Positions 2,434 to 35,012 of a stretch of 43,046 nucleotides of DNA are shown piece by piece. The stretch spans positions 1 to 43,046 of the forward strand of contig JAUYAR010000179.1 in assembly GCA_030693415.1 (NCBI GenBank), written 5' to 3'. The notes beneath the pieces were generated by a model. It was given only the letters and a program-made list of their open reading frames with translations, did no database searches and was not told where the DNA came from. Source of the stretch: Candidatus Cloacimonadaceae bacterium (lineage in GTDB: Bacteria > Cloacimonadota > Cloacimonadia > Cloacimonadales > Cloacimonadaceae). A program made the position numbers and the translations under genes. Every line of letters begins with the position of its first letter. Position 1 is the stretch's first letter.

Positions 2434-3808
2434 TCTTTTCAAAGGCTATAAAGGCAGGGCGCTGGAAGTCCTAAAACACTTTCAAGCACGCGTTTGGGGA
2501 GACGCAAGCGTGGAAACCACCCGCGGCACTTTTCAAGGTATCATCCTTCCGAGAAGCGAAAACGACGACGATCAACACATCGTGATCAAATTGTCCACCG
2601 GCTACAACGTCGGTATCGACGTCAAAACGATACTGGACATGAAAGAACACGGATACAAAGAAGCGCATTACAAGATTCCGGAACGCGAATTTCCCTTCAC
2701 GCCGGGCTTGCCGAAAGTGAAACTCATCGGCACCGGCGGAACCATCGCCTCACGTCTTGATTATCGCACCGGAGCTGTGATTCCGGCATTTTCACCCGGA
2801 GAGCTATATGGTGCGGTTCCGGAACTTGCGGAGATCTGCAATCTCGAAACTGAAAAACTCTTTGCCGTCTTTTCCGAAAATATGGGTCCTGAACAGTATA
2901 AAAAACTGGCAATCACGATCGGTAAGGAGATCCACAAAGGAGTGGCGGGCATCATCATCGGTCATGGAACGGATACCATGCACCACACCGCGGCGGCACT
3001 TTCCTACATGCTGCAAGATCTTCCCATCCCGATTGTAATGGTAGGTTCGCAACGCTCCAGCGACAGACCTTCCTCAGACGCGGCGCTCAATCTGATGAAC
3101 GCATCTTTCGCGGCAGGACATTCGGACATCGCGGAAGTGATGGTTTGCATGTTTGGTCCCACCAGCGATGAATATGGCCTTTTACATCAGGGTACAAGGG
3201 TGCGCAAGATGCATTCCTCCTATCGCAGCACTTTCAGAACGATCGGAGAAGTTCCCATCGCCAGAGTGACCAGAGATTCAATCGTTCACATCAAGCAAAA
3301 CTATAACAAACGCCGCACCGACAAACAGGTGAAAGTCCTGCCTTTCTTCGAAGAACGCGTGGCGATCGTATATTATTATCCAAACATGCATCCGGACATC
3401 ATCGATTCCCTCACGGACAACGGCTATAAGGGCATCGTGATCGCCGGTACGGGACTCGGACACATCAACAAACCGGTCTATCCGGCTATCAAGCGCGCTG
3501 TGGAAAAAGGGGTGCACATCTATATGACCGTCCAAACCCTCTGGGGCTATGTCCACATGTTTGTCTATGACACAGGACGCGATTTGATGAGCATGGGCAT
3601 CGTCCCCGGCGAAAACCTCCTGCCGGAAGTTGCCTACATCAAGCTTGGCTGGGCACTGGGACAATCCAATGATCCTGAAATAGTTCGCGAATTGATGCTA
3701 ACACCCATTGCGGGAGACATTACCCCAGGAGAACCTTACAACGGATATCTCATCTTCCAAGGTGGTATTCCGGAAGTGGAGGAGTTTATCCGAAAGTACC
3801 ACAAATAG
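2426..3808 (+). CDS. gatD: Glutamyl-tRNA(Gln) amidotransferase subunit D (GatD)
   Basis: GatD is the asparaginase-like subunit that hydrolyses glutamine (or asparagine) and feeds ammonia to GatE. Seen in the 460-aa product: an N-terminal beta-barrel domain (about 1-85, with RGTFQGIILPR and HIVIKLSTGYNVGIDV), then a type-I asparaginase domain. That domain has the nucleophile loop GTGGTIAS at 102-109, the second catalytic loop GHGTDTM at 179-185, and GSQRSSDRPSSDA at 207-219. The N-terminal domain distinguishes it from plain AnsA. The start ATG lies inside the end of gatE with a GGGAGGA ribosome site just upstream. Together the two genes form a complete GatDE enzyme, with E before D. I saw no gatC, gatA or gatB in the window. 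Confidence 0.95.
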   Translation: MLDLFKGYKGRALEVLKHFQARVWGDASVETTRGTFQGIILPRSENDDDQHIVIKLSTGYNVGIDVKTILDMKEHGYKEAHYKIPEREFPFTPGLPKVKLIGTGGTIASRLDYRTGAVIPAFSPGELYGAVPELAEICNLETEKLFAVFSENMGPEQYKKLAITIGKEIHKGVAGIIIGHGTDTMHHTAAALSYMLQDLPIPIVMVGSQRSSDRPSSDAALNLMNASFAAGHSDIAEVMVCMFGPTSDEYGLLHQGTRVRKMHSSYRSTFRTIGEVPIARVTRDSIVHIKQNYNKRRTDKQVKVLPFFEERVAIVYYYPNMHPDIIDSLTDNGYKGIVIAGTGLGHINKPVYPAIKRAVEKGVHIYMTVQTLWGYVHMFVYDTGRDLMSMGIVPGENLLPEVAYIKLGWALGQSNDPEIVRELMLTPIAGDITPGEPYNGYLIFQGGIPEVEEFIRKYHK

Positions 3809-4358: not shown

Positions 4359-4700
4359 TTGGCTAACCGCGCAACACTAAACAAAGGACAACCATTGAAC
4401 AATCAACCCCTATCTCTGGATTTGAAATCGAAGCTCGAATTCCTCATGTGGGATTATAATGTTTCCGCGCAGGAGAGCTACGAAGTTCTGATTGGGGCAA
4501 GGGAAATGGCGGGTCACTACGATCAGTTCAATCTATTCAGAAAGGTTTTGGAAACTTACCCGTGGTTCACAATCATGGAGATGCTGCCCTTATCAAGGAT
4601 CAAAGAACTTCTAAACGATCAAGTAGTTTCCAAGCTGCGCTCAAAGCAATTACAAAAAAGATATGAATATATCCGCAACAGACTATCAGGCATTATATAG
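4359..4700 (+). CDS. Small protein paired with an AbiEii-type nucleotidyltransferase
   Basis: This 113-aa protein is predicted from a TTG start. It overlaps the following nucleotidyltransferase gene by 38 bp, which argues for a co-translated pair. The middle of the protein (EFLMWDYNVSAQESYEVLIG, then YDQFNLFRKVLETYPW) recalls small helical proteins encoded just before AbiEii-like genes in Bacteroidetes and relatives (DUF6922-like, from memory, not searched). The first dozen residues are not well supported: the TTG has no clear Shine-Dalgarno, and translation could begin further in. By position it could be the antitoxin or a specificity partner, but no helix-turn-helix is evident. Function is unknown. 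Confidence 0.6.
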   Translation: MANRATLNKGQPLNNQPLSLDLKSKLEFLMWDYNVSAQESYEVLIGAREMAGHYDQFNLFRKVLETYPWFTIMEMLPLSRIKELLNDQVVSKLRSKQLQKRYEYIRNRLSGII

Positions 4701-5379
4701 ACTGCAGGATCAGGCGATTGCCGTTTTGTCAGACGTTCTTGGAGGTTTCTACCTGACCGGTGGCACTGCCTTGGACCGTTTCTATTTACATCACCGATAC
4801 AGCGATGACCTGGATTTTTTCATCAACGCTGCAGATGACTTCAAAGACAGGGTAAACAAAATCTTCCGAAAGCTGAAAAGCTCCTTTGTTCTGGATGAAA
4901 GTCTCACTCTCGAGGCTGAGACATACACCAGATTTTACATTGCTGGTTTACCCAAACTGAAGATTGAAGTGGTAAATGATGTCCCAGAGCGTTGGGGAGC
5001 ATCTAACAAAGCAATGGGAATTGATATCGATAATCCTGCGAATATATTGTCCAATAAGCTCGGATGCATTATGAGCAGAGATGAACCCAAAGATGTCTTT
5101 GATATCATCGTCCTGGCAGAAACATATTCTTTCAATTGGAAAGATGTCTATACTCAAGCGATAAGCAAGCAGATAACCAACGAAACCGATATTGCCATGC
5201 GCCTAAATAGCTTTCCCGTCCATTGGCTCGAAGATGTTCCTTGGATCAAAAAGGCTTTTAATCCAAAAGACATTTCCGCTAAACTTAACAAAATTGCAGA
5301 TGATTTACTCTTTGCCAGGGATAATTCTCTTGGGCTGAACAAACCAAAGATCGAGAATGCCGTAACATCGCAAAGCTAA
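4663..5379 (+). CDS. AbiEii/AbiGii-type nucleotidyltransferase (possible type IV toxin)
   Basis: The 238-aa product has the hallmarks of the AbiEii/AbiGii nucleotidyltransferase family. GGFYLTGGTALDRFYLHHR carries the hG[GS] motif of the nucleotidyltransferase fold, followed by SDDLDFF, the paired acidic metal ligands, at roughly residues 28-53. Later, NILSNKLGC and EPKDVFDIIVL match the conserved K and RxKDxxDl-type segment of the family. Relatives act as toxins in AbiE abortive-infection systems, modifying tRNA or other substrates with nucleotides. It overlaps the upstream small gene, its probable partner. Its TAA stop at 5377-5379 takes two of its bases from the first unit of the heptamer repeat array, so the original C-terminus may have been altered by insertion of that cassette. 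Confidence 0.8.
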   Translation: MNISATDYQALYRLQDQAIAVLSDVLGGFYLTGGTALDRFYLHHRYSDDLDFFINAADDFKDRVNKIFRKLKSSFVLDESLTLEAETYTRFYIAGLPKLKIEVVNDVPERWGASNKAMGIDIDNPANILSNKLGCIMSRDEPKDVFDIIVLAETYSFNWKDVYTQAISKQITNETDIAMRLNSFPVHWLEDVPWIKKAFNPKDISAKLNKIADDLLFARDNSLGLNKPKIENAVTSQS

Positions 5380-8544: not shown

Positions 8545-9273
8545 ATGAATAGCTATTATAGTAAGATAGATTCGGAAAGGTTTGGATTTAAAATCGCAAA
8601 GTTCGGCAATGATGTTGATAACGCAATCGATGTTGTGGATGAGCTTAAGCGGGACGGATTTAGACTGATTATTGCAAGGACGGAGTTTACAAATCTTAGC
8701 TTGATTAATACTCTTGAAAAAATTGGCTTTGTTTATAAGGATGCTCAGCTAACGTTTGGCTACGATATGAAAAGAGAATTACCTCTCCGATTAACAAGCA
8801 CGGTCATGATGCACCCATATCGAGATGCATTCCAAGATAGACTAATTCAAATCACGGAGAACTCGTTTCAAGAATATGGGCATTATTTTGCGGATGAGAG
8901 GCTGGATAGACATAGTTGTAGGCAGATTTATATTGACTGGGTTTATCGTTGTTGCACTGATAAGCTCGTATCCGATCATATGATAGTTGCCGTATTGGAC
9001 GAAGAACCAATAGGATATTTAGCGCTAAAAACAGTAAAGGAGAATGAGCAATTTCATTTAGCCGGTATTATTGGAGCTGTGTCCTCCAAACATCGCCATT
9101 TAGGTGTTTTTCGGATGATAAATATCGAGAGTCTGTATTTATCAAATAGTCTTGGAGCAGCGCATTATGAAGGAAATGTTCATTTGACAAATTTCCCGGT
9201 AATGAAGACGTACACCAGCTTATCATATCGGATTATCCGGTCTGAGATAACCTTACACTTATGGTTGGACTAA
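8545..9273 (+). CDS. GNAT acetyltransferase, WecD-like (TDP-4-amino-deoxysugar N-acetyltransferase)
   Basis: The 242-aa protein resembles WecD/RffC, which acetylates the 4-amino group of TDP-4-amino-4,6-dideoxygalactose. Seen: an N-terminal half with the substrate-domain pattern (FGFKIAKFG, then GFRLIIART), the GHYFADERLD segment at about 112-121, and a C-terminal GNAT domain. The GNAT domain holds the acetyl-CoA loop SSKHRHLGVFRM at about 180-191 and ends TNFPVMKTYTSLSYRIIRSE, a pattern typical of this group. Length is close to E. coli WecD (224 aa). It is the first gene after a good promoter, with AAGGAG before the ATG. A WecE-like aminotransferase three genes downstream supports a 4-amino-sugar substrate, though the exact sugar is uncertain because dideoxy-sugar genes are also present. 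Confidence 0.8.
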   Translation: MNSYYSKIDSERFGFKIAKFGNDVDNAIDVVDELKRDGFRLIIARTEFTNLSLINTLEKIGFVYKDAQLTFGYDMKRELPLRLTSTVMMHPYRDAFQDRLIQITENSFQEYGHYFADERLDRHSCRQIYIDWVYRCCTDKLVSDHMIVAVLDEEPIGYLALKTVKENEQFHLAGIIGAVSSKHRHLGVFRMINIESLYLSNSLGAAHYEGNVHLTNFPVMKTYTSLSYRIIRSEITLHLWLD

Positions 9274-9367
9274 ATTATGAATCACTATCGGGAGCAGATT
9301 CAGATCATTGGATACGTGATTTCCAAGGTATTCAGCTACATAACATGTTCTCGAGGAGTGAGCTAAA

Positions 9368-10297
9368 GTGCCAAACCTAATATCTGTGGTAATTCCATTA
9401 TACAATACAAGAGATTGCTTAGAGATGCTATATTCAAGGCTTTTAGAATCTTTAAATGAGACTCTCGCAGACTTTGAAATAATATTCGTAGATGACAACA
9501 GCCCTCAAGCAGATCACATTTTAATCAGCAAGATATCCAAAAAAGACGAACGGGTAAAACTGGTCAAACTCTCTCGCAATTTTGGGCAGCAAGCTGCGAT
9601 TTCTTGTGGAATTAGCTATGCAAAAGGGGATTGGGTTGTGGTGATGGACGCCGACCTTCAGGATCGACCAGAGGAAATATCAAGCCTATATCAAAAGGCT
9701 CTCGAGGGCTATGACATAGTATTCACGGAGGTCAATAGCCGGAGAGACAATATTATTAAAAAGCTATATTCCAAAGCATTCCATACACTGTTTGCATATC
9801 TTACCGGCAGCATGGCAAATTATGGAATGAGGAATTTTGGAATTTACAGCCGCAAAGTGGTTGATGCCTTCTTGACGCTTGAGGAGCAATTCAGAGGTTT
9901 TGCCCTACTTGTGAGGTGGCTTGGTTTCAACAGTGCAACGATTCAAATTCAACATGATAAAAGGGAGACGGGCAAATCCTCCTATGATTTCTCAACAGGC
10001 TTAAGCCTGGCTTTGGATTCCTGGGTAACGTTTTCGGATAAACCACTGAGAATCACTGTGTCGGCTGGTTTTTTAATATCGTTGATTTCGTTCATGATAG
10101 GCTTATTTTATTTACTAAGAGCTTTGTTAGGGTATCGGGTTGTGCTTGGCTGGACAAGTCTTATCCTTTCAGTGTGGTTTCTTAGCGGCTTTACTGTTTT
10201 TTGTATAGGTTTGATAGGTCTTTACATTGGTAAGGTGTTTAAAGAGACAAAGAAGAGACCTCACTATCTAATCGATTACACGGAGAATTTGCCATGA
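9368..10297 (+). CDS. Family 2 glycosyltransferase, ArnC/GtrB-like (undecaprenyl-phosphate sugar synthase)
   Basis: The 309-aa protein has a GT-A domain: ISVVIPLYN at the start, FVDDNSP, NFGQQAAISCGI, and the metal-binding DADLQDRPEE. Two hydrophobic helices follow near the C-terminus (about 230-255 and 265-290). This is the architecture of GtrB, ArnC and DPM1-like enzymes, which transfer a sugar from a nucleotide donor to polyprenyl phosphate on the cytoplasmic face. The start is GTG with GAGGAG about 8 bases upstream. Its stop overlaps the ATG of the next gene (ATGA), a small membrane protein that could flip the product. Likely donor: the TDP-sugar made by the neighbouring enzymes (inference). 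Confidence 0.88.
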   Translation: MPNLISVVIPLYNTRDCLEMLYSRLLESLNETLADFEIIFVDDNSPQADHILISKISKKDERVKLVKLSRNFGQQAAISCGISYAKGDWVVVMDADLQDRPEEISSLYQKALEGYDIVFTEVNSRRDNIIKKLYSKAFHTLFAYLTGSMANYGMRNFGIYSRKVVDAFLTLEEQFRGFALLVRWLGFNSATIQIQHDKRETGKSSYDFSTGLSLALDSWVTFSDKPLRITVSAGFLISLISFMIGLFYLLRALLGYRVVLGWTSLILSVWFLSGFTVFCIGLIGLYIGKVFKETKKRPHYLIDYTENLP

Positions 10298-10659
10298 AGC
10301 ATTTATATATATTTGGCACAATCTTGTTCACTGTGTATGGGCAAATGATCATCAAATGGAGAATGAGTTATTACGGAGAATCTCCTGTTGCGTTTCAAAG
10401 CAAGGTCACATTTCTGTTAAACTGCTTGGCGGATCCGTATATAATTAGTGGGTTTGCAGCAGCTTTTATGGCGTCACTTTTTTGGATGTCTGCCGTATCA
10501 GTATTTCCTTTAAGTTATGCATATCCATTTATGGGGTTAAATTTTGTGATTGTCCTTTTCTTATCGGCGTCTCTATTTAAGGAGAAAATCTCAGTTCCTA
10601 CTATTTTGGGGACACTGCTGATCGTCGCGGGAATTGCGCTTCTGAGTATGAAAAAGTGA
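10294..10659 (+). CDS. Small DMT/EamA-type membrane protein, ArnE-like
   Basis: This 121-aa protein has four predicted transmembrane segments (about 3-20, 45-65, 70-92 and 98-118). Its last part (FPLSYAYPFMGLNFVIVLFLSASLFKEKIS, shown here as the start of TM3 to TM4) has the pattern of small multidrug-resistance and EamA half-transporters. In the Arn pathway, ArnE/ArnF of similar size flip undecaprenyl-phosphate aminoarabinose across the inner membrane. Overlaps of 4 bp with both the upstream glycosyltransferase and the following gene imply tight coupling. A role as flippase for the lipid-linked sugar made by the preceding enzyme is inferred from context. Confidence 0.75.
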   Translation: MKHLYIFGTILFTVYGQMIIKWRMSYYGESPVAFQSKVTFLLNCLADPYIISGFAAAFMASLFWMSAVSVFPLSYAYPFMGLNFVIVLFLSASLFKEKISVPTILGTLLIVAGIALLSMKK

Positions 10660-10664
10660 AAACT

Positions 10665-11807
10665 ATGATACCCTTTAACAAACCATACTTGTCCACAAAC
10701 GAAGAACAATACGTGCTTGATGCTTTGAAGTCTGGAAGAATATGTGGCAATAATCAATACGCACAAAAAGTCTTCGGGCACTTGGAGCAAAAACACGGGC
10801 TGGAGAATTCTTTCCTGGTTCCGTCAGGCACATCCGCATTAGAAATGGGAGCTATTCTCGCTGATTTGGGTCCTGGTGATGAAGTGATTCTACCTTCATA
10901 TACTTTTAGCTCGACTGCAAATGCAGTAGTTCTTACCGGAGCAAAGCCGGTATTTTGCGAGATTGATCCGGGCACGATGAATGCCGATGTAGGGCATGCG
11001 GCTTCACTTGTTTCAGAGCGGACGAAGATGCTCTTGCCCATAGATTATGCCGGTATTCCATGCGACCTTGATGGCTTTTTATCCCTTGCTGAAATACATA
11101 ATCTCTCTTTGATGGTGGATGCCGCTCAGTCTTACGGAAGTTATTACAAAGGGCAGGCTTGTGGCAGCATGGGGGATTTGGCTGCATTCAGTTTTCATGA
11201 AACAAAGAATATTAGTTGTGGCGAAGGCGGTGCCTTGATCGTGAACAATCCCGAGTGGATTGAACGGGCTCATTTTTTACAGGAAAAAGGGACGGATCGC
11301 AGATTGGTGCTTTATGGTCAAAAAACAAAATATCACTGGGTGGATAAGGGATCAAGCTATTTGCTTTCTGACATCCTGGCAGCGTTGTTGTTGTCCCAAT
11401 TGGAGAGCGAAGACATCATTCATGGTTTACGCAGGAAGGTAGCGGATGCTTATTTTGAGTTATACAAACCTTATCGGGATTGGGATTTGATCAGCTTTAC
11501 ACCCTATGATAAATTTGAACAGGTGAACAACCATGCCTTTTGGGTTATATTTGACACAGAGCAGAAAAAAGAAGATTTTATCATGAGCCTCAAGGCAATG
11601 AATATCCATGCCTACATAGGCTACCTACCCCTGCATTCATCCCCAATGGGAATCAAATTGGGCAATGACATAAATGATCTTCCTATTACCCAAGATGTTG
11701 CATCCAGGATTGTGAGGCTGCCTATGTATGCCAGTCTCGCAAATGAAGGTCTGGATTACTGCCTTGAAAAAATGCAGAATGTAATGAAACAAATCTATGG
11801 AGAATGA
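10665..11807 (+). CDS. wecE: TDP-4-keto-6-deoxyhexose 4-aminotransferase, WecE-like (PLP)
   Basis: This DegT/DnrJ/EryC1 aminotransferase closely resembles E. coli WecE/RffA. It starts MIPFNKPYLS, then has PSGTSALEM, GDEVILPSYTFSSTANA, the PLP-ring contact VDAAQSYGS (Asp152) and the Schiff-base lysine in SFHETKN (Lys181), followed by CGEGGAL. It should convert TDP-4-keto-6-deoxy-D-glucose to the 4-amino-4,6-dideoxy-galacto sugar using glutamate, or act on the 2-deoxy version made by the next genes. I chose the ATG at 10665 because it gives the MIPFN start conserved in WecE. A GTG at 10656 overlapping the upstream stop is in frame and would add three residues. The stop overlaps the ATG of the next gene. 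Confidence 0.87.
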   Translation: MIPFNKPYLSTNEEQYVLDALKSGRICGNNQYAQKVFGHLEQKHGLENSFLVPSGTSALEMGAILADLGPGDEVILPSYTFSSTANAVVLTGAKPVFCEIDPGTMNADVGHAASLVSERTKMLLPIDYAGIPCDLDGFLSLAEIHNLSLMVDAAQSYGSYYKGQACGSMGDLAAFSFHETKNISCGEGGALIVNNPEWIERAHFLQEKGTDRRLVLYGQKTKYHWVDKGSSYLLSDILAALLLSQLESEDIIHGLRRKVADAYFELYKPYRDWDLISFTPYDKFEQVNNHAFWVIFDTEQKKEDFIMSLKAMNIHAYIGYLPLHSSPMGIKLGNDINDLPITQDVASRIVRLPMYASLANEGLDYCLEKMQNVMKQIYGE

Positions 11808-13282
11808 TGACCAAGCAAAGAGTGCATGAGCTGAAAAACAGACTCTCAAAACATCTTGGTGAGTATTCTCAGAGCGTCGAATTCGAAATGTTTTTTTCGG
11901 CTCTAATAGACTTTAATCCCTACAATTCGACGGAAGAAATCTTACAGTGGTTGAAAGAACTTAACAATACCCAATATTTTAGTGTTGAAGAGATTTCTTT
12001 TTCGGAATTACAACAATGGCATTTTGATAACATAACAGGAGATTTAAAACACAATAGAGGGAAATTCTTTAGCATAAGAGGTTTTCAGGTTTTTAATAGC
12101 TGGTCAGGAGAATTGCTTTGGGATCAACCAATCATCGACCAACCTGAGATCGGTGTCTTGGGCATCCTGTGTAAGAAAATGGATGGTGTCTTGTATTTTC
12201 TGATGCAAGCAAAAGCAGAACCGGGAAATATCAATACATATCAGATTTCACCAACTGTTCAAGCGACACGTAGTAATTACATGCAAGCGCATGGAGGTCT
12301 CAGCACCAGATATTTGGAGTATTTTAACGGTGTGGCACCGGTCAAGATTATATTTTATCAATATCAATCGGAACAAGGTGCAAGGTTCATGGAAAAAAGG
12401 AACCGGAATATCATTGTTTATGACGAATCCAGCTCTCTGATCGAGCTTAGTGAAAATCACAGATGGCTAACCATGGGGCAGATCAAGAGCATGATGGAAC
12501 ATGATAATACGGTGAATATGGACTGCCGGTCGGTGATTTCGCAGATCAGGTATTGGAATGAAGAGAATGTTCTTGATACTGAGAAGTTGCTTTGCATATT
12601 GAACGACTATCGGGACGTGATCAGCCGAAGCGACTTTTGGTTGAAGTCTGTGTCCCAGTCTTTTGCAATTCACAAATCAGACAATGAACTTAACGAGATT
12701 AAAAAAAAACTGGACTGGAAGCGGTTTTTTTGTTTTATGAGCAAAAAACCAATCTCTCTTAACGAGGTCAAGCATTGGAATATTGGAGATAAGACAATTG
12801 AACATATCTCTGCCAAATACTTCCAGGTTTTGGCTGTACGTATCAAGGCAAGCAATCGAGAGGTCGATGGTTGGGATCAACCCATTATGAGTCAGCGTCA
12901 TAATGGAGTGATCGGTATACTTGCTACGGATATCGGTGGAGAGATTCGTTTCTTGGTGCAGATGAAGATTGAACCTGGATTATACGATCTGGTTGAGCTG
13001 GCTCCGACCGTTCAGTGTATAGAGCAGAATTATGATTCTGACCCCAAGCCGAATTTCTTAGAGGCTTTTAGACGCGGACCGTTTATCTATGGGGCAAAAC
13101 AATCTGAGGAAGGTGGCAGATTTTACCGCGAATGCAGTAGTAACATCATAAAAGTGATCGACAGTGTTGATATCTCAGATGATCAGAACTATCTCTGGAT
13201 ATCGTTGAAACATTTGAAAGAACTGGTTCAGACGCAACAAATGCTAAACGTGGAACTGAGAAGCCTGTTAGCATATTTCTAA
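11804..13282 (+). CDS. NDP-hexose 2,3-dehydratase
   Basis: The 492-aa protein consists of two homologous halves, as in the NDP-hexose 2,3-dehydratase family (TylX3, EryBVI and SpnO type). The repeated core WDQPII-Q--IGVLGI occurs at about residues 105-125 and again as WDQPIMSQRHNGVIGI near 365. Each is followed by FL-Q-K-EPG and a -PTVQ- segment (SPTVQATRSNY and APTVQCIEQNY). These enzymes remove the C2 hydroxyl of TDP-4-keto-6-deoxyglucose to give a 3,4-diketo-2,6-dideoxy sugar, which a 3-ketoreductase must reduce; that enzyme is the next gene. The family is best known from antibiotic deoxysugar pathways, and its presence in a surface polysaccharide locus is less common. Start and upstream stop overlap as ATGA. 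Confidence 0.92.
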   Translation: MMTKQRVHELKNRLSKHLGEYSQSVEFEMFFSALIDFNPYNSTEEILQWLKELNNTQYFSVEEISFSELQQWHFDNITGDLKHNRGKFFSIRGFQVFNSWSGELLWDQPIIDQPEIGVLGILCKKMDGVLYFLMQAKAEPGNINTYQISPTVQATRSNYMQAHGGLSTRYLEYFNGVAPVKIIFYQYQSEQGARFMEKRNRNIIVYDESSSLIELSENHRWLTMGQIKSMMEHDNTVNMDCRSVISQIRYWNEENVLDTEKLLCILNDYRDVISRSDFWLKSVSQSFAIHKSDNELNEIKKKLDWKRFFCFMSKKPISLNEVKHWNIGDKTIEHISAKYFQVLAVRIKASNREVDGWDQPIMSQRHNGVIGILATDIGGEIRFLVQMKIEPGLYDLVELAPTVQCIEQNYDSDPKPNFLEAFRRGPFIYGAKQSEEGGRFYRECSSNIIKVIDSVDISDDQNYLWISLKHLKELVQTQQMLNVELRSLLAYF

Positions 13283-13293
13283 TAAGGACATCG

Positions 13294-14187
13294 ATGAAGA
13301 AGATAAGATTTGGAGTGATTGGCTGCGGGTATCAGACTACCAAGAACATGGCGCCTGCCATGGCAAAATGTTCATCAGTCAATATTCACGGTTTTTATGA
13401 TCTTGACTCCGGCAAAGCCGAAGAGATGGCAAAAAAATATGGTACGAGATCATACAACCACATCGAAGAGCTACTGAGTGATACTGAAATAGATGCCATA
13501 TATATTGCCACCCCGGTTTCCTCACATACAGAATTATCACTATTAGCAGCCGGTTATGATAAGCATGTTCTCTGTGAAAAACCGTTGGCATTAAACGACT
13601 CAGAAGCACAGAAAGTATCAGCACTTTTTAAGGAACTGAACTTGGTTTTGCTCGAGGGTTTCATGTATCAATACCACACACAGCATCAGTTTGTAAGAGA
13701 AATGATAGCCAAAGGGGAAATTGGGGTTCCGATTGTGTTTTATGCATGGCTTGGGTTTCCGCCCTTTCCTGCCACGGATTTTCGCATGATCAAGGAAATG
13801 GGTGGAGGCGCTTCATTAGACGCAGGATGCTATGTGAAACATGCAGCCGAGATGTTTTTTGGGCGTGCCCCTATCGATACTAATAGTGTAGTAGCTGATG
13901 ATGAATCCGGACTGGATATACACGGGTCGGTGCTCATGGATTTTGGCATGGGGCAAAGCGCCATTCTGAGTTATGGTATGGATAACTCGTATAAAAACTC
14001 ATATTCAGTTTGGGGTACCAAGGGAGAGATTACTCTTTGCCGGGCGTTTTCGATCCCAGAATATGAGATTCCGATTTGTCGTGTTGTAAATCAGGGGTTA
14101 GTAAGGGAGTATCAGCTAAAACCATGCAATCATTTTGTAGTGGAATTGGATCAGTTCACACAGATGATAGCAGATAAAGTATATTAA
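13294..14187 (+). CDS. NDP-hexose 3-ketoreductase (Gfo/Idh/MocA family), frameshifted near the 3-prime end
   Basis: The open frame encodes 297 residues of a Gfo/Idh/MocA oxidoreductase. It has an N-terminal Rossmann motif (FGVIGCGYQTTKNMAPA), ATPVSSH, the signature CEKPLAL, and a C-terminal sheet domain (GGGASLDAGCYVKH). With the preceding 2,3-dehydratase this is the classical pair for 2-deoxysugars (TylCII/SpnN type): NADPH-dependent reduction of the C3 keto group. The frame stops 30-40 residues before the usual end of the family, in FTQMIADKVY. The missing tail is found in the +1 frame (14186-14281, with the family-typical SSLENLRS), so one extra T at about 14184-14185 has truncated the gene, unless it is an assembly error. 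AAGGACATCG precedes the ATG. Confidence 0.87.
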   Translation: MKKIRFGVIGCGYQTTKNMAPAMAKCSSVNIHGFYDLDSGKAEEMAKKYGTRSYNHIEELLSDTEIDAIYIATPVSSHTELSLLAAGYDKHVLCEKPLALNDSEAQKVSALFKELNLVLLEGFMYQYHTQHQFVREMIAKGEIGVPIVFYAWLGFPPFPATDFRMIKEMGGGASLDAGCYVKHAAEMFFGRAPIDTNSVVADDESGLDIHGSVLMDFGMGQSAILSYGMDNSYKNSYSVWGTKGEITLCRAFSIPEYEIPICRVVNQGLVREYQLKPCNHFVVELDQFTQMIADKVY

Positions 14188-14281
14188 CGCTCCAAGATGT
14201 TGTTCAAGTTTGGAGAATTTAAGATCAGTACAAACTACTAAAAGCGCCGTAGGATGTTCATTAGAAAAACATTATGGATAA
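14186..14281 (+). pseudogene. Out-of-frame C-terminal remainder of the 3-ketoreductase
   Basis: Reading in the +1 frame directly after VY gives 31 residues beginning NAPRCCSSLENLRSVQ and ending LEKHYG, then TAA at 14279-14281. SLEN-R followed by a short helix and then a strand is the normal C-terminal end of Gfo/Idh/MocA proteins. The restored protein would be about 329 aa, the usual family size. Its stop would overlap the ATG of the next gene at 14274 by 8 bases, matching the coupled layout elsewhere in the locus. Confidence 0.7.
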
Positions 14282-15599
14282 TTTTAAGAAAGTGACTGCC
14301 TGGCTTTCAGAAGGCATGCCACTGAATGCAAAACTGACGCACGCCCGTAGATACGTGATGCTACTTGTTTGGCTACTGCCAGTGGTTGGGTATATATACA
14401 AGGCTCTGATCAACACATTGCACTTGAAACGTAGCGGTGATGAGGGTTTTTTTCTGAAAGAGCTTGGCAGGTTTCAGCAGGATGGGATGTGGACGTCCTT
14501 TTCTGATGGTATTTCCCATCTACATGTCTTGCTCGTCAATTTTTTAAGCTACTTTGTGGGACAGCCATTATTAGCCGGGCGAATACTCAGTTTGCTGCTA
14601 CTTCCTTTAGGATTTCTGATCGGTGTCTGGATTATAAGAAATCTCAGATTATCGCACGCAGTGGAGGTGTTGACCTTGGCAACGCTTGCTTATGTTCTGG
14701 TATTCAGCCAGTCAGGAAAAATGTTTTACCGTTTTCTGAGTGATCCGCTGATGATCGTGATTGCCTTGGGATCTATACTATACATTCAGCGGTATTGCAC
14801 GGAATACCGAATTAAGTATTTGATTAGCGCTGCCATACTTGCCGGGATGATGTTTTGGGTGCGGTCTTTTGCTCTGTTAATTTTTGGTGGAATGTTCGCT
14901 TTCTTCCTTTACTTATTCATTTTCCATAAACCAAGAGTAAAACACTTTTCTGCGATGCTATTGTTTATAACTATTGCCTCAAGCACTGCACTAATCGTCC
15001 AAATCCCCAGTATCCATAACAAGGGCAGGATTTCTTTTGAAGATAAGAGCGGCGATGGGGACTGGAACGAACGTAATTGGATCACAAGGATAGACAGAAA
15101 AAGCAATGGTGGTGTATTTTCCTACTTAAGGGTTACATGGGATAGGGTCGAACAATTCAAGCAAGAATACGGTGAACATAGCATTCCGAGATCGTTATCG
15201 GAGAGATTTGCCAGGGATCCGAAGTTTATGGTTGATAGCTTTGTTTCCAATATGGTTGTGAGGATACCGTATGTATTGTTGATCAGCATCGGATTTTACT
15301 TTTTGTTGTTGCTTGATTTGATTAGACGACCCAAGTGGTTGTTTTGGGATTTACAGAGCTCTTTCAAGCTGCTTTTGTTATCTGTTTTTGTTAGTGTTAG
15401 CTTGGGTCTTTCGCTGATCATTGTAAACTACATCGAGCATAGATGGCTCTTTGCGGCAGTATTTTGCGCCCTGATATTGTCATCGATGCACTTGGATAGA
15501 TCTGTGATGAGAAGATACCGCAAGTATTTGATTGGCAGTCAATGGATTTTTCTATTGTTGACCGGTGCTGCAGAATTGATCGGGTTAATCATAATTTGA
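14274..15599 (+). CDS. GT-C membrane glycosyltransferase (GT39/ArnT-like)
   Basis: The 441-aa protein has about 10-11 transmembrane segments. After the first one (about 28-48) comes a first periplasmic loop with the acidic pair GDEGFF (Asp56-Glu57), the hallmark of GT-C enzymes that use polyprenyl-phosphate sugars (PMT, ArnT, GT39, GT83). A larger soluble loop (about 250-310: DKSGDGDWNERNWITRID) is followed by more membrane helices. Such enzymes transfer a sugar from undecaprenyl phosphate to lipid A, glycan or protein on the periplasmic side. With the ArnC-like transferase and ArnE-like protein upstream it completes a lipid-linked sugar route (inference). The acceptor cannot be predicted. 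It is shorter than ArnT (about 550 aa). Confidence 0.75.
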   Translation: MDNFKKVTAWLSEGMPLNAKLTHARRYVMLLVWLLPVVGYIYKALINTLHLKRSGDEGFFLKELGRFQQDGMWTSFSDGISHLHVLLVNFLSYFVGQPLLAGRILSLLLLPLGFLIGVWIIRNLRLSHAVEVLTLATLAYVLVFSQSGKMFYRFLSDPLMIVIALGSILYIQRYCTEYRIKYLISAAILAGMMFWVRSFALLIFGGMFAFFLYLFIFHKPRVKHFSAMLLFITIASSTALIVQIPSIHNKGRISFEDKSGDGDWNERNWITRIDRKSNGGVFSYLRVTWDRVEQFKQEYGEHSIPRSLSERFARDPKFMVDSFVSNMVVRIPYVLLISIGFYFLLLLDLIRRPKWLFWDLQSSFKLLLLSVFVSVSLGLSLIIVNYIEHRWLFAAVFCALILSSMHLDRSVMRRYRKYLIGSQWIFLLLTGAAELIGLIII

Positions 15600-15821: not shown

Positions 15822-16943
15822 GTGATATCGGTATTTGGATGTAAAACAGGAAATGAAGAGATTGCCCTGGTCACAGAGGTACTTAGATCCCAATGGCTGG
15901 GCTTGGGCAGGTACGTCGAAGAATTTGAAAGCGAATTTGCCAAGTATAGGAACCTTGATAGCTTTGTGATGGTGGATAGTGGTTCCAATGCCTTGTATAT
16001 GGCGATAAAACTCTTGGATTTGCCACCTGGGTCCGAGATCATACTGCCCTCTTTCACATGGGTATCCTGTGCACAAGCAATACTTCTGGCGGGACATAAT
16101 CCAGTCTTTGCCGATGTGGAAATTGAGAGCAACAACATCACTGCTGATCTGATTAAGCCGCACATCACCCCAAAAACTGCTGCTGTGATGGTGGTTCATT
16201 TTGCTGGTAAGCCAGTGGATATGGATCCCATTTTAGCCTTAGGTATTCCCATAATCGAGGATGTCGCCCATGCAGTATCCTCAAGCTATAAAGGGAGGAC
16301 CTGCGGGAGTATCGGAGACGTCGCGATTTTCAGCTTCGACGCAGTGAAGAACTTAACGGCTGGAGAAGGCGGCGGCGTAGCGATGAAAAATCCCGACCTG
16401 AAAGCCAGAGCAATGCAATTAAGATATTGTGGGATCGGCAAATCAGGTTTTGAGGCTGCTTCTTCCGGAGCTTCTCAAAAAAACAGATGGTGGGAGTATC
16501 ACATTCAGGAACCTTTTATTAAAATGCTGCCCAACAACATAACTGCCGCCGTTGCTTTGGCTCAACTGCGCAAGATCGATGACCTACAGGAAACGCGAAA
16601 AGTGTGTTTCGATCAATATCAATGCGAGCTAAAAAATGTAGGAGATATCTTATGTCCGCCAGATCCCGCATCTTATGAGGAACACTCCTACTTCACTTAT
16701 GTAATCAGGACAGCCAAACGTGATTCCCTCGCCAGATTTCTTCTGGATAAAGGGATTTATACGACGCTGCGCTATCATCCTCTTCATCTAAATCGCATAT
16801 ATGGCAGCCATGTGAGGTTGCCCAACTCTGAACTGCTCAATGAAACTGCACTAAGCATTCCCCTGCATCCCAATCTCAGCGAAAGTGATATGGATTACAT
16901 CATCTCAAGCATCAAGGAATTTTATGGAACAAACCACGTATAA
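15822..16943 (+). CDS. DegT/DnrJ/EryC1/StrS sugar aminotransferase
   Basis: This 373-aa PLP enzyme carries the family pattern: VDSGSNALYMAIKLLDL, EIILPSFTWVSCAQA, the PLP contact IIEDVAHAV (Asp147), the lysine in FSFDAVKNLTAGEGGG (Lys176), and a C-terminal half that ends with the HPLHLNRIYG segment. It makes an amino sugar from a nucleotide-linked keto sugar. It differs from the WecE-like enzyme upstream; with the adjoining cupin it could be a 3-aminotransferase of the FdtB/QdtB kind, but the specificity cannot be fixed by eye. The start is GTG with AGGAG about 7 bases upstream. It overlaps the next gene by 20 bases. Confidence 0.87.
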   Translation: MISVFGCKTGNEEIALVTEVLRSQWLGLGRYVEEFESEFAKYRNLDSFVMVDSGSNALYMAIKLLDLPPGSEIILPSFTWVSCAQAILLAGHNPVFADVEIESNNITADLIKPHITPKTAAVMVVHFAGKPVDMDPILALGIPIIEDVAHAVSSSYKGRTCGSIGDVAIFSFDAVKNLTAGEGGGVAMKNPDLKARAMQLRYCGIGKSGFEAASSGASQKNRWWEYHIQEPFIKMLPNNITAAVALAQLRKIDDLQETRKVCFDQYQCELKNVGDILCPPDPASYEEHSYFTYVIRTAKRDSLARFLLDKGIYTTLRYHPLHLNRIYGSHVRLPNSELLNETALSIPLHPNLSESDMDYIISSIKEFYGTNHV

Positions 16944-17379
16944 GATAAAGAAGAACAGACGAATAGTTACTAAGAACAGGCACGATCAGATCAACGGATA
17001 TCTGGTGCCGATAATTGATATCGGGGACGAGTTTATTTCTCCCGAACAGTTTCCACGGCAAGTATATCTTACAGTTGTAGATCCAGGCGAGATCAAGGGT
17101 CCGCACTTCCATAAAGAGCGCTATGCCATGTACACTTGTATCAAAGGCAATATCAAGATCGTTCTTAAACTTGAAGACAAATATGAAGTCCTTTTTTCCG
17201 GCGAAGATCACGATTATGCCACTTTATGGATCCCTGCCGGGATACCGACCGCGGTGATAAATATGGATATGGATAATCCGAGTTTCATATTAAACACTCC
17301 CAATCCCTCATTTCTCGAAACCCCCTTTGATGATCATAACGTGGAGTTTGATCCCTCAGTTCTAAATAACGATGCATGA
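16924..17379 (+). CDS. Cupin-fold sugar epimerase/isomerase-like protein
   Basis: The 151-aa protein is a single cupin domain. Motif 1 is KGPHFHKERYAMYTCIKGNI with two metal- or substrate-binding histidines. Motif 2 is LWIPAGIPTAVINMD, and a C-terminal segment (LNTPNPSF, then DDHNVEFDPS) resembles the end of RmlC. It is about 30 residues shorter than RmlC and most like RmlC-related or WxcM/FdtA-type proteins in polysaccharide loci. Likely role: epimerase or 3,4-ketoisomerase acting on a TDP-4-keto-6-deoxy sugar, next to the aminotransferase and rmlA. I chose the ATG at 16924, with AAGGAA upstream, rather than an in-frame ATG at 16885 lying deeper in the preceding gene. Confidence 0.72.
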   Translation: MEQTTYKIKKNRRIVTKNRHDQINGYLVPIIDIGDEFISPEQFPRQVYLTVVDPGEIKGPHFHKERYAMYTCIKGNIKIVLKLEDKYEVLFSGEDHDYATLWIPAGIPTAVINMDMDNPSFILNTPNPSFLETPFDDHNVEFDPSVLNNDA

Positions 17380-17437: not shown

Positions 17438-18307
17438 ATGAAAGGTATAATTTTAGCCGGTGGTGCAGGAACACGGCTTCACCCCCTGACGATCGCCGTA
17501 AGCAAGCAACTGATGCCAATATATGACAAGCCGATGATCTATTATCCGCTTTCAGTGCTTATGTTGGCGGGAATACAGGACGTTTTGATTATCACCACTT
17601 TGGAAGACCAGTCCGGTTTTAAAAAACTGTTCGGGGATGGAAGCCAATTGGGGATGAGAATTGAATATGCCGTGCAGCATGTTCCCAACGGACTTGCTCA
17701 GGCATTTGTAATCGGTGCTGATTTTATAGGAAAAGACAAGGTGTGCCTTATTCTTGGGGATAACATCTTCTACGGTTCAGACCTGCAATTGAAGGTAATG
17801 GGATGCACTGATCCAACAGGCGCAATAATCACAGCTTATCCGGTCAATGATCCAGAAAGATTTGGGATAGTTGAATTTGATGAAGAATTTCGGGTAATCA
17901 GCATTGAAGAAAAACCCATGTATCCCAAATCGAAGTATGCAGTCCCGGGATTGTATTTCTATGATAATAGTGTATTAAACATTGCCAGAGAAATAAAACC
18001 TTCTGCCAGAGGCGAATATGAGATCACAGATGTGAACCGGGTTTATCTCGAACAAGGTAAGCTAAGTGTTTTGCCATTGGGAAGGGGTATTGCCTGGCTG
18101 GATACGGGAACCTTTGAAACGCTTGTGCAAGCTTCGCAATTTGTGGAAATCATTGAACAAAGACAGGGATTCAAGATCAGTTGCATTGAGGAGATTGCTT
18201 ACAGAAAAGGATTTATCGATGATGAGCAGCTAATTAGATTAGCCGAACCGATCAGAAAAAGCGGATATGGGGAATATTTAATCAGCTTGCTGAAACGAGA
18301 GTTTTGA
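17438..18307 (+). CDS. rmlA: Glucose-1-phosphate thymidylyltransferase (RmlA)
   Basis: RmlA makes dTDP-glucose from dTTP and glucose-1-phosphate, the entry step for all TDP-deoxysugars. The 289-aa product starts [17 protein letters not shown] and continues [45 protein letters not shown] and [13 protein letters not shown], all standard for the short RmlA class (about 290 aa). GAGGAAG lies before the ATG. No rmlB (dTDP-glucose 4,6-dehydratase), rmlC or rmlD of normal type is present in the window, so the 4-keto-6-deoxy intermediate must come from a gene elsewhere. Confidence 0.95.
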
Positions 18308-18320
18308 TCTGGACAAGCCT

Positions 18321-19085
18321 GTGAAATTAGCTGTAATGCAACCTTATTTTCTTCCCTATCTGGGTGCATATCAGCATGTTTATGCCGTGGACAAATACAT
18401 CATTTACGGGAGTGTGAACTTTAGAAATAATGGATGGTTCAATCGGAACCGCCTAATGGAAAAAAATAAGGGACCACGATATTTCAATATCCCAATGATT
18501 GAAAGTAGCTTTCTTAAGACATTTAGAGATATAGAAGTTGACCCGTCACAGAGGTGGCGGGTAAAGCTATTGAGAACTATCGAGCTAAATTACAATAAAT
18601 GCGATTATTACGCTGTGACATTTGATTTGATCCGGGGAATAGTGCTGTGTGATTTGGTTCATCTGGATGAGTTTAATGCCAATTCGATGATCATGGTAAG
18701 CAAACATTTGGATATAAATACCCAGATAGTATTGGATCGTGGAAACTATGCGGCTATCGAAACGGAATTAGGAAGCAAATTTGATGAAACGATTGAATCG
18801 GGAGATATCGTAAGCCATGATCTCGATAAAAAAACTGCCCGAATTATCGAAATCTGCAAACAAGAACAAGCCGCTACTTATGTCAATCCGATTGGTGGTC
18901 AGGCTCTTTATTCAAAGAGTGTATTCAAAGCTAATGGAATTGAATTGTTGTTCTTGAAAACCAGAGAGATACGCTACAAACAGATGTATGATTCTTTTGA
19001 GCCCAATCTGTCCATACTCGATGTTTTGATGAACTGCGGAAAGGATCAAACAAAAGAACTAATCAAGGAATATGATTTAGTGTGA
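18321..19085 (+). CDS. WbqC family protein
   Basis: The 254-aa protein begins KLAVMQPYFLPYLGAYQHV and contains the WbqC-family features WFNRNRL, YFNIPM, RTIELNYNK and the C-terminal YVNPIGGQALY and LLFLKTREIRY. WbqC proteins occur in O-antigen and glycopeptide-type loci. Their biochemical role is not well established, but they are often encoded with a PLP aminotransferase, as here. The start is GTG, and its stop overlaps the GTG of the following gene (GTGA), so the two are probably made together and may act on the same sugar or an amino-acid-derived group. Confidence 0.85.
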   Translation: MKLAVMQPYFLPYLGAYQHVYAVDKYIIYGSVNFRNNGWFNRNRLMEKNKGPRYFNIPMIESSFLKTFRDIEVDPSQRWRVKLLRTIELNYNKCDYYAVTFDLIRGIVLCDLVHLDEFNANSMIMVSKHLDINTQIVLDRGNYAAIETELGSKFDETIESGDIVSHDLDKKTARIIEICKQEQAATYVNPIGGQALYSKSVFKANGIELLFLKTREIRYKQMYDSFEPNLSILDVLMNCGKDQTKELIKEYDLV

Positions 19086-20101
19086 CAACAATACATCAAT
19101 CCATCGGCGGGTATTTTGAGTTAGAGCTCCAAGAGGGGAACCAATTTCACCCTGATGCCATAGGGCTGAATAGCGCTCGAAATGCTTTGAGACTGATCCT
19201 AACTGATCGGAATATTAAAAAGATCTATATCCCTTTCTATACCTGCTCGGTGATATTAGATCCGATAATAAGTAGCGGGTGCAGTTATGAGTTTTATCAG
19301 CTTGACCGGGATTTCTTGCCAGATATCAGATTTGACGACATGGACGCGGGGTCTTTTTTTCTCTACACAAACTATTTTGGCTTGTGTGATAAGCAGGCTA
19401 TGGAAATCTCAAAAGTATGTCCGAATCTGATAGTTGATAATTCCCAGGCTTTTTTTTCCCGTCCGATAAATGATGTGCCAACCTTCTATTCCCCCAGGAA
19501 GTATTTTGGAGTCCCGGATGGGGCATACTTATACCCGGGTTCGATTGATGGCATTGACATACAGTCCATGCAATATTGCCACTCACATGCTCGATGCTCC
19601 CATCTGTTGAAAAGGATCGATTTGTCGCCTGAAGATGGGTATGGAGATTTTAAGGATTGCGAAAAGCTGATTTCAAGCGATGCCGTTTGTTTGATGTCAA
19701 AGTTGTCGAGGAGGATTCTTGGCGGTATTGATTACAATTTGATCAGCCAGCGTAGGAGAAGTAACTACCAAACACTGCACAAAGAACTGGGCTTTCTCAA
19801 TGAGCTTGAACTTGCCAATATCGATATAGCCGATTCAGCTCCATTGATCTATCCATTGTTGCTGAAAAACACCGGGTTCAAGGAAAGGTTAATCAGAGAT
19901 AAAATATACATAGCAACGTATTGGGATAACGTTTATCAGTGGACCGCCTCTGATTCATGGGAATGGTATTTAACGGATAATCTCATAGCCCTGCCCATCG
20001 ATCAACGCTATAATGAGTCCCAGATGAAAGTAATAATTGAGAAGGTACTCACCTTCCATGCCGATGATAATATGGAAAAACTAAGCGGAACAAATAATTG
20101 A
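19082..20101 (+). CDS. DegT-like PLP-dependent enzyme coupled to WbqC
   Basis: The 339-aa product is a diverged member of the DegT/fold-type-I aminotransferase group. Recognisable parts: LNSARNALRLIL (phosphate-binding region), IYIPFYTCSVILDPI, the PLP contact LIVDNSQAFFS (Asp119, Gln122), and SPRKYFGVPDGAYL, in which Lys140 is in the place of the Schiff-base lysine. It lacks the EGG-motif after the lysine seen in the other two aminotransferases here. It is coupled to WbqC by a GTGA overlap. The substrate is unknown; a role in making an amino-acyl or amino-sugar substituent is a guess. Confidence 0.72.
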   Translation: MTTIHQSIGGYFELELQEGNQFHPDAIGLNSARNALRLILTDRNIKKIYIPFYTCSVILDPIISSGCSYEFYQLDRDFLPDIRFDDMDAGSFFLYTNYFGLCDKQAMEISKVCPNLIVDNSQAFFSRPINDVPTFYSPRKYFGVPDGAYLYPGSIDGIDIQSMQYCHSHARCSHLLKRIDLSPEDGYGDFKDCEKLISSDAVCLMSKLSRRILGGIDYNLISQRRRSNYQTLHKELGFLNELELANIDIADSAPLIYPLLLKNTGFKERLIRDKIYIATYWDNVYQWTASDSWEWYLTDNLIALPIDQRYNESQMKVIIEKVLTFHADDNMEKLSGTNN

Positions 20102-34193: not shown

Positions 34194-35012
34194 ATGAGGA
34201 TAATACGTCGGTATTATAACTACTTGCGTTATGGGATCAGAAACAAGTACTTACGCCCGAATATCAAGTATAAATTGCACGCATATAACAAGGACTATTC
34301 GGACAGAATATGCAGTTTTTTCCAAACCTGTAATTTGAACATTGCGGTAGTGTTTTCGGGCTTGAAACAGGTTCGCTACAGTCTTGGTGCTGAGGATCCC
34401 TATAGTCATGTAGATACAATTCTTAACAACTCATTTGAAACAGTTATTGTCCCTACCTTCACGCCAGCGGTTCTATATACTGGCGTGTTTGATGTTTCTG
34501 CTACGGAGAGTGAGAGCGGAACTTTTTCGCAATTATTCTTAAAGAGTGCCGAGGGGAGGACTCTCAGTCCATTTAAAAGTTTCGCATTGAAAGGATTGAT
34601 GACGCCAGAATTACTTAGTCTGCATACTTTCAACGATTATATAGCAGGCGGGATGTTCCATTTTTTCAACTCTAATGATGTTGTATCCGTTAATGTGGGA
34701 ACAATGGACATCAGATTTGGAACAATTCACTATCTTGAAAGTATGTGTAATCTTCCCTACATTCGACATAGAGATGTTAGAATAAGGGTGATTGATTCAA
34801 ATGGGATATCCAGATCGAGTGAATACTGTCATCTTGATTATAAAATTAGAGTGAAGTTTTCCCGAGATAAAATAGAAAGAGATTTGCACAGAGCAGGCAT
34901 TATCAAGGTCTTGATAATCAACGACATGATTGTTCGCATAATTCCAGAGATAGACTGTTCTGATTACCTAATCAAGCGCCTGAAAGCAGATCCCTATTAT
35001 CTTGTGGATTAA
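34194..35012 (+). CDS. AAC(3)-fold N-acetyltransferase (sugar-modifying)
   Basis: The 272-aa product follows the pattern of aminoglycoside 3-N-acetyltransferases (antibiotic_NAT family): YSHVDTILNNSFETVIVPTF, then the TESESGTFSQLFLKS region and GRTLSPFKSFALKG. Further on come GTIHYLE (His179) and LPYIRHRDV. In true AAC(3) enzymes the middle motif is RSxHPxxS; here it is RTLSPFKS, with Ser125 in place of the histidine. Members with this change occur in polysaccharide loci and presumably acetylate an amino sugar. Drug resistance is not implied. The gene lies between a glycosyltransferase and a deacetylase. Confidence 0.75.
   Translation: MRIIRRYYNYLRYGIRNKYLRPNIKYKLHAYNKDYSDRICSFFQTCNLNIAVVFSGLKQVRYSLGAEDPYSHVDTILNNSFETVIVPTFTPAVLYTGVFDVSATESESGTFSQLFLKSAEGRTLSPFKSFALKGLMTPELLSLHTFNDYIAGGMFHFFNSNDVVSVNVGTMDIRFGTIHYLESMCNLPYIRHRDVRIRVIDSNGISRSSEYCHLDYKIRVKFSRDKIERDLHRAGIIKVLIINDMIVRIIPEIDCSDYLIKRLKADPYYLVD

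Follow-up and report, generated by a model that had tools for sequence, protein, structure and literature searches.

A predicted module for a lipid-linked 4-amino-2,4,6-trideoxyhexose at the head of a Cloacimonadaceae polysaccharide locus

Gene content and order

The stretch of DNA analyzed here (the window, 43,046 nucleotides) is the entire contig JAUYAR010000179.1 (C179) of a 2.8-Mb metagenome-assembled genome of a Candidatus Cloacimonadaceae bacterium that is 99.8% complete. Positions 8545–15599 carry seven open reading frames, all on the plus strand, that we describe as one putative module for making and exporting an aminodeoxysugar. An open reading frame list confirmed every one of the seven genes at the positions given in an earlier, sequence-only description of this locus (the original prediction). 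The module genes, and a precursor-supply gene further downstream, are as follows.

8545–9273, plus strand: GNAT-type N-acyltransferase, weakly WecD-like
9368–10297, plus strand: GT2 polyprenyl-phosphate glycosyltransferase of the ArnC/GtrB/PgfS type (PF00535 and PgfS/ArnC profiles)
10294–10659, plus strand: small DMT/EamA protein of the ArnE/ArnF type (EamA profile)
10656–11807, plus strand: WecE-type dTDP-4-keto-sugar 4-aminotransferase (NF008687)
11804–13282, plus strand: NDP-hexose 2,3-dehydratase, EvaA type (two PF03559 repeats)
13294–14187, plus strand: Gfo/Idh/MocA sugar 3-ketoreductase, KijD10 type (match to PDB entry 3RBV)
14274–15599, plus strand: polytopic membrane glycosyltransferase, PMT_2/GT-C-like (PMT_2 match below cut-off)
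17438–18307, plus strand: RmlA glucose-1-phosphate thymidylyltransferase, precursor supply (TIGR01207)

The start–stop overlaps first described along the whole run are present at three of the six junctions, GT2/DMT, DMT/WecE and WecE/2,3-dehydratase, each of 4 base pairs (bp); the other three are gaps of 94 bp (GNAT–GT2), 11 bp (2,3-dehydratase–3-ketoreductase) and 86 bp (3-ketoreductase–GT-C). The next gene starts 222 bp past the GT-C-like gene. Because the overlaps run from GT2 through DMT and WecE to the dehydratase and the following gaps are short, the sugar-making genes lie inside a frame opened by the GT2 and DMT genes and closed by the GT-C-like gene. A large O-antigen/exopolysaccharide locus carries the module at its 5′ end and continues with a DegT/FdtA-like pair, RmlA, WbqC, Wzx, GMD/fucose synthase-like genes, glycosyltransferases and a WecB-type epimerase. 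Judged from sequence comparison, the family calls are strong for the GT2, WecE, 2,3-dehydratase and 3-ketoreductase proteins, safe for the DMT protein and weak for the 'WecD-like' GNAT and GT-C proteins.

A complete gene set for a TDP-2-deoxy-4-aminosugar

The WecE-type aminotransferase scores 421 bits against the NF008687 equivalog profile (cut-off 375), which bears out its original description as a WecE-like 4-aminotransferase, and 362 bits against TIGR02379, below that profile's cut-off of 435. The fit to ArnB is far poorer (183 bits, with 631 needed). The protein is 41% identical to Escherichia coli WecE and 28% identical to ArnB, and its nearest PDB entries are 4PIW and 6BLG.

The proposed 2,3-dehydratase/3-ketoreductase pair for 2-deoxysugars is also recovered. 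The dehydratase contains both PF03559 repeats (E = 7e-127) and matches EvaA (4J7G, E = 5e-89), and the best PDB match of the ketoreductase is KijD10 (3RBV, E = 3e-38), whose EKPL lysine and DAGCY tyrosine are both kept in the alignment. The ketoreductase ends about 20 residues short of its relatives, perhaps through a frameshift or sequencing or assembly error, or through real loss. At window positions 14150–14273, another frame encodes ILTLQDVVQVWRI, which is similar to the ketoreductase tail of relatives.

RmlA exceeds its TIGR01207 cut-off (467 bits versus 361), and RmlB is encoded elsewhere in the genome (G000:C139:7042-8064; 476 bits, cut-off 365), so that RmlA, RmlB, 2,3-dehydratase, 3-ketoreductase and 4-aminotransferase make up a complete gene set for a thymidine diphosphate (TDP)-linked 2-deoxy-4-aminosugar. 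In established pathway chemistry, RmlA and RmlB together with a 2,3-dehydratase, a 3-ketoreductase and WecE lead to TDP-4-amino-2,4,6-trideoxyhexose. This is the predicted product here, under a name that covers either orientation of the C3 hydroxyl and either the D or the L series.

The GNAT protein has no Pfam match in a profile search. Its sole profile match is WecD (NF008212) at 22.5 bits, against a cut-off of 219, and pairwise alignment with E. coli WecD shows no significant similarity; we therefore keep the GNAT-type label and regard the claimed likeness to WecD as weak. A homologue in genome G008 (29% identity, E = 6e-15) passes the PF00583 cut-off and adjoins a DegT aminotransferase. 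An AlphaFold2 model of the GNAT protein alone, with a mean predicted local distance difference test score (pLDDT) of 35, is too poor for a fold search. We propose that it N-acetylates the 4-amino sugar.

Separately, positions 15822–17379 encode a DegT aminotransferase and a cupin with a weak FdtA match (30 bits). We considered this pair as further members of the route, which would imply a 3-amino sugar, and rejected it, as it is set off by the 222-bp gap and its aminotransferase falls outside the WecE clade. It is possible that the pair serves a second sugar in the locus, of the 3-amino-3,6-dideoxy type.

Candidate proteins for carrier loading, flipping and transfer

The GT2 protein matches PF00535 (E = 7e-30), and its best NCBIfam profile is PgfS (228 bits, equivalog cut-off 500), followed by ArnC (179 bits). 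Its crystallized homologues are GtrB/sll0501 (5EKP, E = 3e-54) and ArnC (9HWJ, E = 1e-45), in keeping with the ArnC/GtrB-like GT2 first proposed. It carries a DADLQD motif and hydrophobic segments at residues 226–292 and, as in multi-component transmembrane glycosylation systems, is a polyprenyl-phosphate glycosyltransferase with a C-terminal membrane anchor. Those systems also include a small flippase (GtrA or SMR/DMT), and the DMT protein belongs to such a family: it passes the EamA cut-off (30.8 bits versus 28.2) and matches ArnF (43.5 bits, E = 4e-11) and ArnE (35 bits, E = 1e-8), both below the cut-offs of these profiles. Its local alignment with ArnE scores 12 standard deviations above shuffled sequences (z = 12). 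The small ArnE-like DMT of the original prediction thus stands at the level of family, and we regard the protein as a candidate flippase of the lipid-phosphate-linked sugar.

The third component is assigned with less ease. The GT-C-like protein scores 20.0 bits against PMT_2, under the cut-off of 26.1, and its homologue (L015) scores 26.7, just over it; comparison by hhalign with PMT_2-type proteins of genomes G018 and G029 gives E = 1e-4 and a probability of 56%. A conserved Asp-Glu (DE) motif follows its first hydrophobic segment, the location of the proposed catalytic Asp of GT-C enzymes (PMC11127046). Neither hhalign nor pairwise alignment detects similarity to E. coli ArnT, so the 'ArnT-like' part of the original label falls away and a weakly supported membrane GT-C-like assignment remains. 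Among the 125 Cloacimonadota genomes that form our comparative set, the protein has one homologue, in G017 (contig JAAYJN010000040.1, Candidatus Cloacimonadota), where, at a contig edge, the gene and wecE share 4 bp. A scan of 84,980 species returned a single locus, again that of the G017 homologue, and no relative was found among plasmids.

The cassette recurs beside other GT-C-like proteins

The 2,3-dehydratase occurs in four of the 125 genomes, and in three of the four the 2,3-dehydratase/3-ketoreductase/WecE cassette adjoins a GT-C-like protein, with a polyprenyl-phosphate GT2 in the locus. The order is WecE, 2,3-dehydratase, 3-ketoreductase, DUF6044 and a Wzx-like gene in G035, and RmlA, 2,3-dehydratase, 3-ketoreductase, WecE, DUF6044 and a Wzx-like gene in G050; in each case, an ArnC/PgfS-like GT2 and a PglD-like acetyltransferase are encoded upstream. 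The WecE proteins of the three loci form one clade (support 100/100) apart from other WecEs, a pattern consistent with a common 2-deoxy substrate. This directly observed coupling strengthens the reading of the window's product as a lipid-linked sugar. The remaining genome, G015, has a Wzx-like gene, dehydratase, ketoreductase, FdtB-like gene and RmlA, with no adjoining GT-C. 'Wzx-like' in these relatives denotes an assignment by length, hydrophobic N-terminus and position rather than by family search.

The surrounding frame also recurs by itself. Trios of GT2, DMT and GT-C without sugar genes are found in G018 and G029, and G115 and G116 combine GT2 and DMT with a PMT_2 protein; the frame is therefore a working unit in the phylum. 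Two GT2–DMT–PMT_2 trios (L032:8226-10785 and L033:1564-4144), whose genes follow one another with little or no spacing and lack adjoining sugar genes, are putative stand-alone three-component glycosylation systems.

Beyond the phylum, plasmid relatives of the 2,3-dehydratase are nearly all from Streptomyces and other actinobacteria, the exceptions being single Serratia and Hoeflea records, and they were no help as a guide to surface polysaccharides. A literature search for 2,3-dehydratases in O-antigen loci found none, a weak negative since names containing commas are not searchable.

A conserved WecE–DUF6044 operon in the phylum

DUF6044 is present in 22 of the 125 genomes. Ten of the 21 DUF6044 loci examined have the complete order PF03706 membrane protein, GT2, PglD-like, WbqC, WecE and DUF6044; five more show WecE and then DUF6044 where the contig or the examined stretch breaks off. 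The rest comprise two without WecE, G035 and G050 with their 2-deoxy genes, G091 with GT2 directly before DUF6044, and G082, which is cut off. Loci of this type, in which PF03706 is the LPG synthase TM family, include L066-L080 (for example L075:4093-10015), L011 and L012. WecE adjoins DUF6044 in most phylum loci, and its adjacency to a GT-C-like protein is kept across many genera, so WecE is habitually encoded with a polyprenyl-phosphate GT2 and a GT-C-like protein in Cloacimonadota. The conserved operon has the appearance of a lipid-linked aminosugar system not described before, and the window module regroups it with a different flippase candidate, acetyltransferase and GT-C-like protein. 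Both contain genes for a GT2, for WecE, for an acetyltransferase and for a GT-C-like protein; the standard operon has no 2,3-dehydratase or ketoreductase, its flippase candidate and GT-C family are different, and its WecE is only 31–38% identical to that of the window. In L075, MaoC, HpcH/CitE, a protein with no Pfam match and NadA come before the operon and may supply an unusual acyl group.

PF19510 (DUF6044) has a match in Bacillus subtilis that we take to be YkoS, which would make DUF6044 the YkoS family. Our literature search for DUF6044 found no paper. YkoS is listed as the GT-C partner of YkoT, with sugar and flippase unassigned, and the same review assigns no substrate to DUF6044/YkoS-type proteins (PMC8035078). 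Their position directly after a WecE aminotransferase in Cloacimonadota provides a substrate hypothesis. Taken further, WecE, a polyprenyl-phosphate GT2 and a DUF6044 or PMT_2 GT-C protein could define a phylum-wide, undescribed 4-aminosugar class, with the window as its 2-deoxy version and the first case of an antibiotic-type 2,4,6-trideoxy-4-aminohexose placed on polyprenyl phosphate for transfer outside; we offer this broader proposal as possible rather than probable.

Proposed function and alternatives

We consider it fairly probable that the module makes a 4-amino-2,4,6-trideoxyhexose, loads it onto polyprenyl phosphate, flips it and transfers it outside to a surface glycan. What the sequences show directly is the gene content and order, the families of the GT2, WecE, dehydratase and ketoreductase proteins, and the return of the coupling in other genomes; each reaction is predicted from the gene set, as are the identity of the sugar, its acetylation, flipping by the DMT protein and the choice of acceptor. 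RmlA and RmlB would produce TDP-4-keto-6-deoxyglucose, which the 2,3-dehydratase and 3-ketoreductase would convert to TDP-4-keto-2,6-dideoxyhexose. The WecE-type enzyme would aminate C4, giving by WecE precedent an axial, galacto-type amine, which the GNAT protein probably acetylates. Loading of the sugar onto polyprenyl phosphate would fall to the GT2 protein and flipping to the small DMT protein, which probably acts as a homodimer. The GT-C-like protein would then transfer the sugar on the outer side of the inner membrane, most likely to the surface polysaccharide encoded downstream, where it would form a side branch. The O-antigen context makes the polysaccharide of the same locus the most likely acceptor, with protein and lipid A less likely. 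Of the original proposal, the undecaprenyl-phosphate-linked, flipped and periplasmically transferred 4-amino-2,4,6-trideoxyhexose is the reading best supported by the gene set, and lipid A as an acceptor is unsupported.

Several points weigh against this assignment. The GT-C identity is weak and an AlphaFold model of the protein with its single homologue is too poor for a fold search (pLDDT 40); the acyltransferase is barely WecD-like; and the C-terminus of the ketoreductase may be defective. We rejected inference of the GT2 substrate from sequence, as the protein is equally distant (32–36% identity) from ArnC and from the GT2s of G035 and G050. The G015 dehydratase and ketoreductase lie next to a Wzx-like and an FdtB-like gene, with no GT-C beside them, and 2-deoxysugars can therefore enter ordinary repeat units. 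Finally, the exact six-gene unit occurs in none of the other Cloacimonadota genomes, an outcome that the original prediction had named as a refutation, and its sub-blocks recur regrouped; the gene order is unique in the sense of unique within those 125.

The strongest alternative assigns the genes to two neighboring but separate functions: synthesis of a TDP-aminodeoxysugar that a cytoplasmic glycosyltransferase builds into Wzx/Wzy repeat units, and an ordinary Gtr-like GT2–DMT–GT-C system that adds a common sugar such as glucose. The G015 arrangement, the trios free of sugar genes and the presence of Wzx and several other glycosyltransferases in the window all speak for it. However, the position of the sugar genes inside the DMT–GT-C interval, with 4-bp overlaps, the pairing of the cassette in G035 and G050 with a GT-C-like protein of another family, and the WecE–GT-C-like adjacency across many genera argue against such a division, and we regard it as unlikely. 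Delivery of the lipid-linked aminodeoxysugar to surface proteins, as in the Pgf system, is less likely still: PgfS, the best NCBIfam profile of the GT2, belongs to a surface-protein glycosylation operon of Streptococcus mutans (PMC5856776), but the score lies far under the equivalog cut-off and the module heads a Wzx-containing polysaccharide locus. ArnT-like modification of lipid A with a positively charged sugar is very improbable, since the GT-C protein has no detectable ArnT similarity, an acetyltransferase would abolish the charge and the genes sit in a polysaccharide locus, even though LpxC in the genome makes lipid A a likely product and the DMT and GT2 resemble ArnE/F and ArnC.

Relation to known systems

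Favoring the lipid-linked aminodeoxysugar, we view the module as a new combination of known parts. With the Arn system for 4-amino-4-deoxy-L-arabinose (L-Ara4N; arnBCADTEF, Enterobacteriaceae) it shares a 4-aminotransferase, a polyprenyl-phosphate GT2 (32% identical to ArnC), an ArnE/F-type DMT and, by a weaker assignment, a GT-C-like protein. It differs in using a TDP-2-deoxyhexose route in place of UDP-glucuronic acid decarboxylation, in having a single DMT gene, in an acetyltransferase that replaces formylation and deformylation, and in a GT-C protein that is not detectably ArnT. No arnA- or arnD-type family was matched among the module and other scanned window proteins, a set covering part of the window's open reading frames, and neither arnA/arnD with arnB nor ArnT (GT83) was found. 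'Arn-like' therefore describes the mode of action and not the family.

The module shares a polyprenyl-phosphate-sugar synthase, a small candidate flippase and a GT-C-like protein in one locus with the Gtr, CsbB–GtcA–YfhO, YkoT–YkoS and Citrobacter youngae pentofuranose systems; the described multi-component systems add glucose, galactose, N-acetylglucosamine or pentofuranoses (PMC11127046, PMC8035078), whereas the operon here includes a multi-step aminodeoxysugar pathway. Its dehydratase/ketoreductase pair, predicted to act on TDP-4-keto-6-deoxyglucose, is that of antibiotic TDP-2,6-dideoxy-aminosugar pathways (EvaA, KijD10), here in a Gram-negative surface-polysaccharide locus with WecE and membrane transfer genes and not in a natural-product cluster. 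If our proposal is correct, a type of sugar best known from antibiotics would serve as a surface decoration delivered on a carrier lipid, in systems whose range has so far been mostly glucose, galactose, N-acetylglucosamine, pentofuranoses and L-Ara4N.

Other features of the window

GatDE is usually regarded as archaeal. Positions 454–3808 encode an archaeal-type Glu-tRNA(Gln) amidotransferase, with GatE (458 bits) and GatD (504 bits) both over their equivalog cut-offs; GatE passes its cut-off in 42 of the 125 Cloacimonadota genomes. An AbiEii-type nucleotidyltransferase (PF08843) and an overlapping upstream open reading frame of 113 residues, resembling a type IV toxin–antitoxin pair, occupy positions 4359–5379. 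Within the polysaccharide locus, WbqC is directly followed, at 18321–20101, by a protein of 339 residues that is aminotransferase-like by eye and has no Pfam match, and an aminoglycoside 3-N-acetyltransferase-family protein (PF02522) at 34194–35012 probably modifies one of the glycan's amino sugars.

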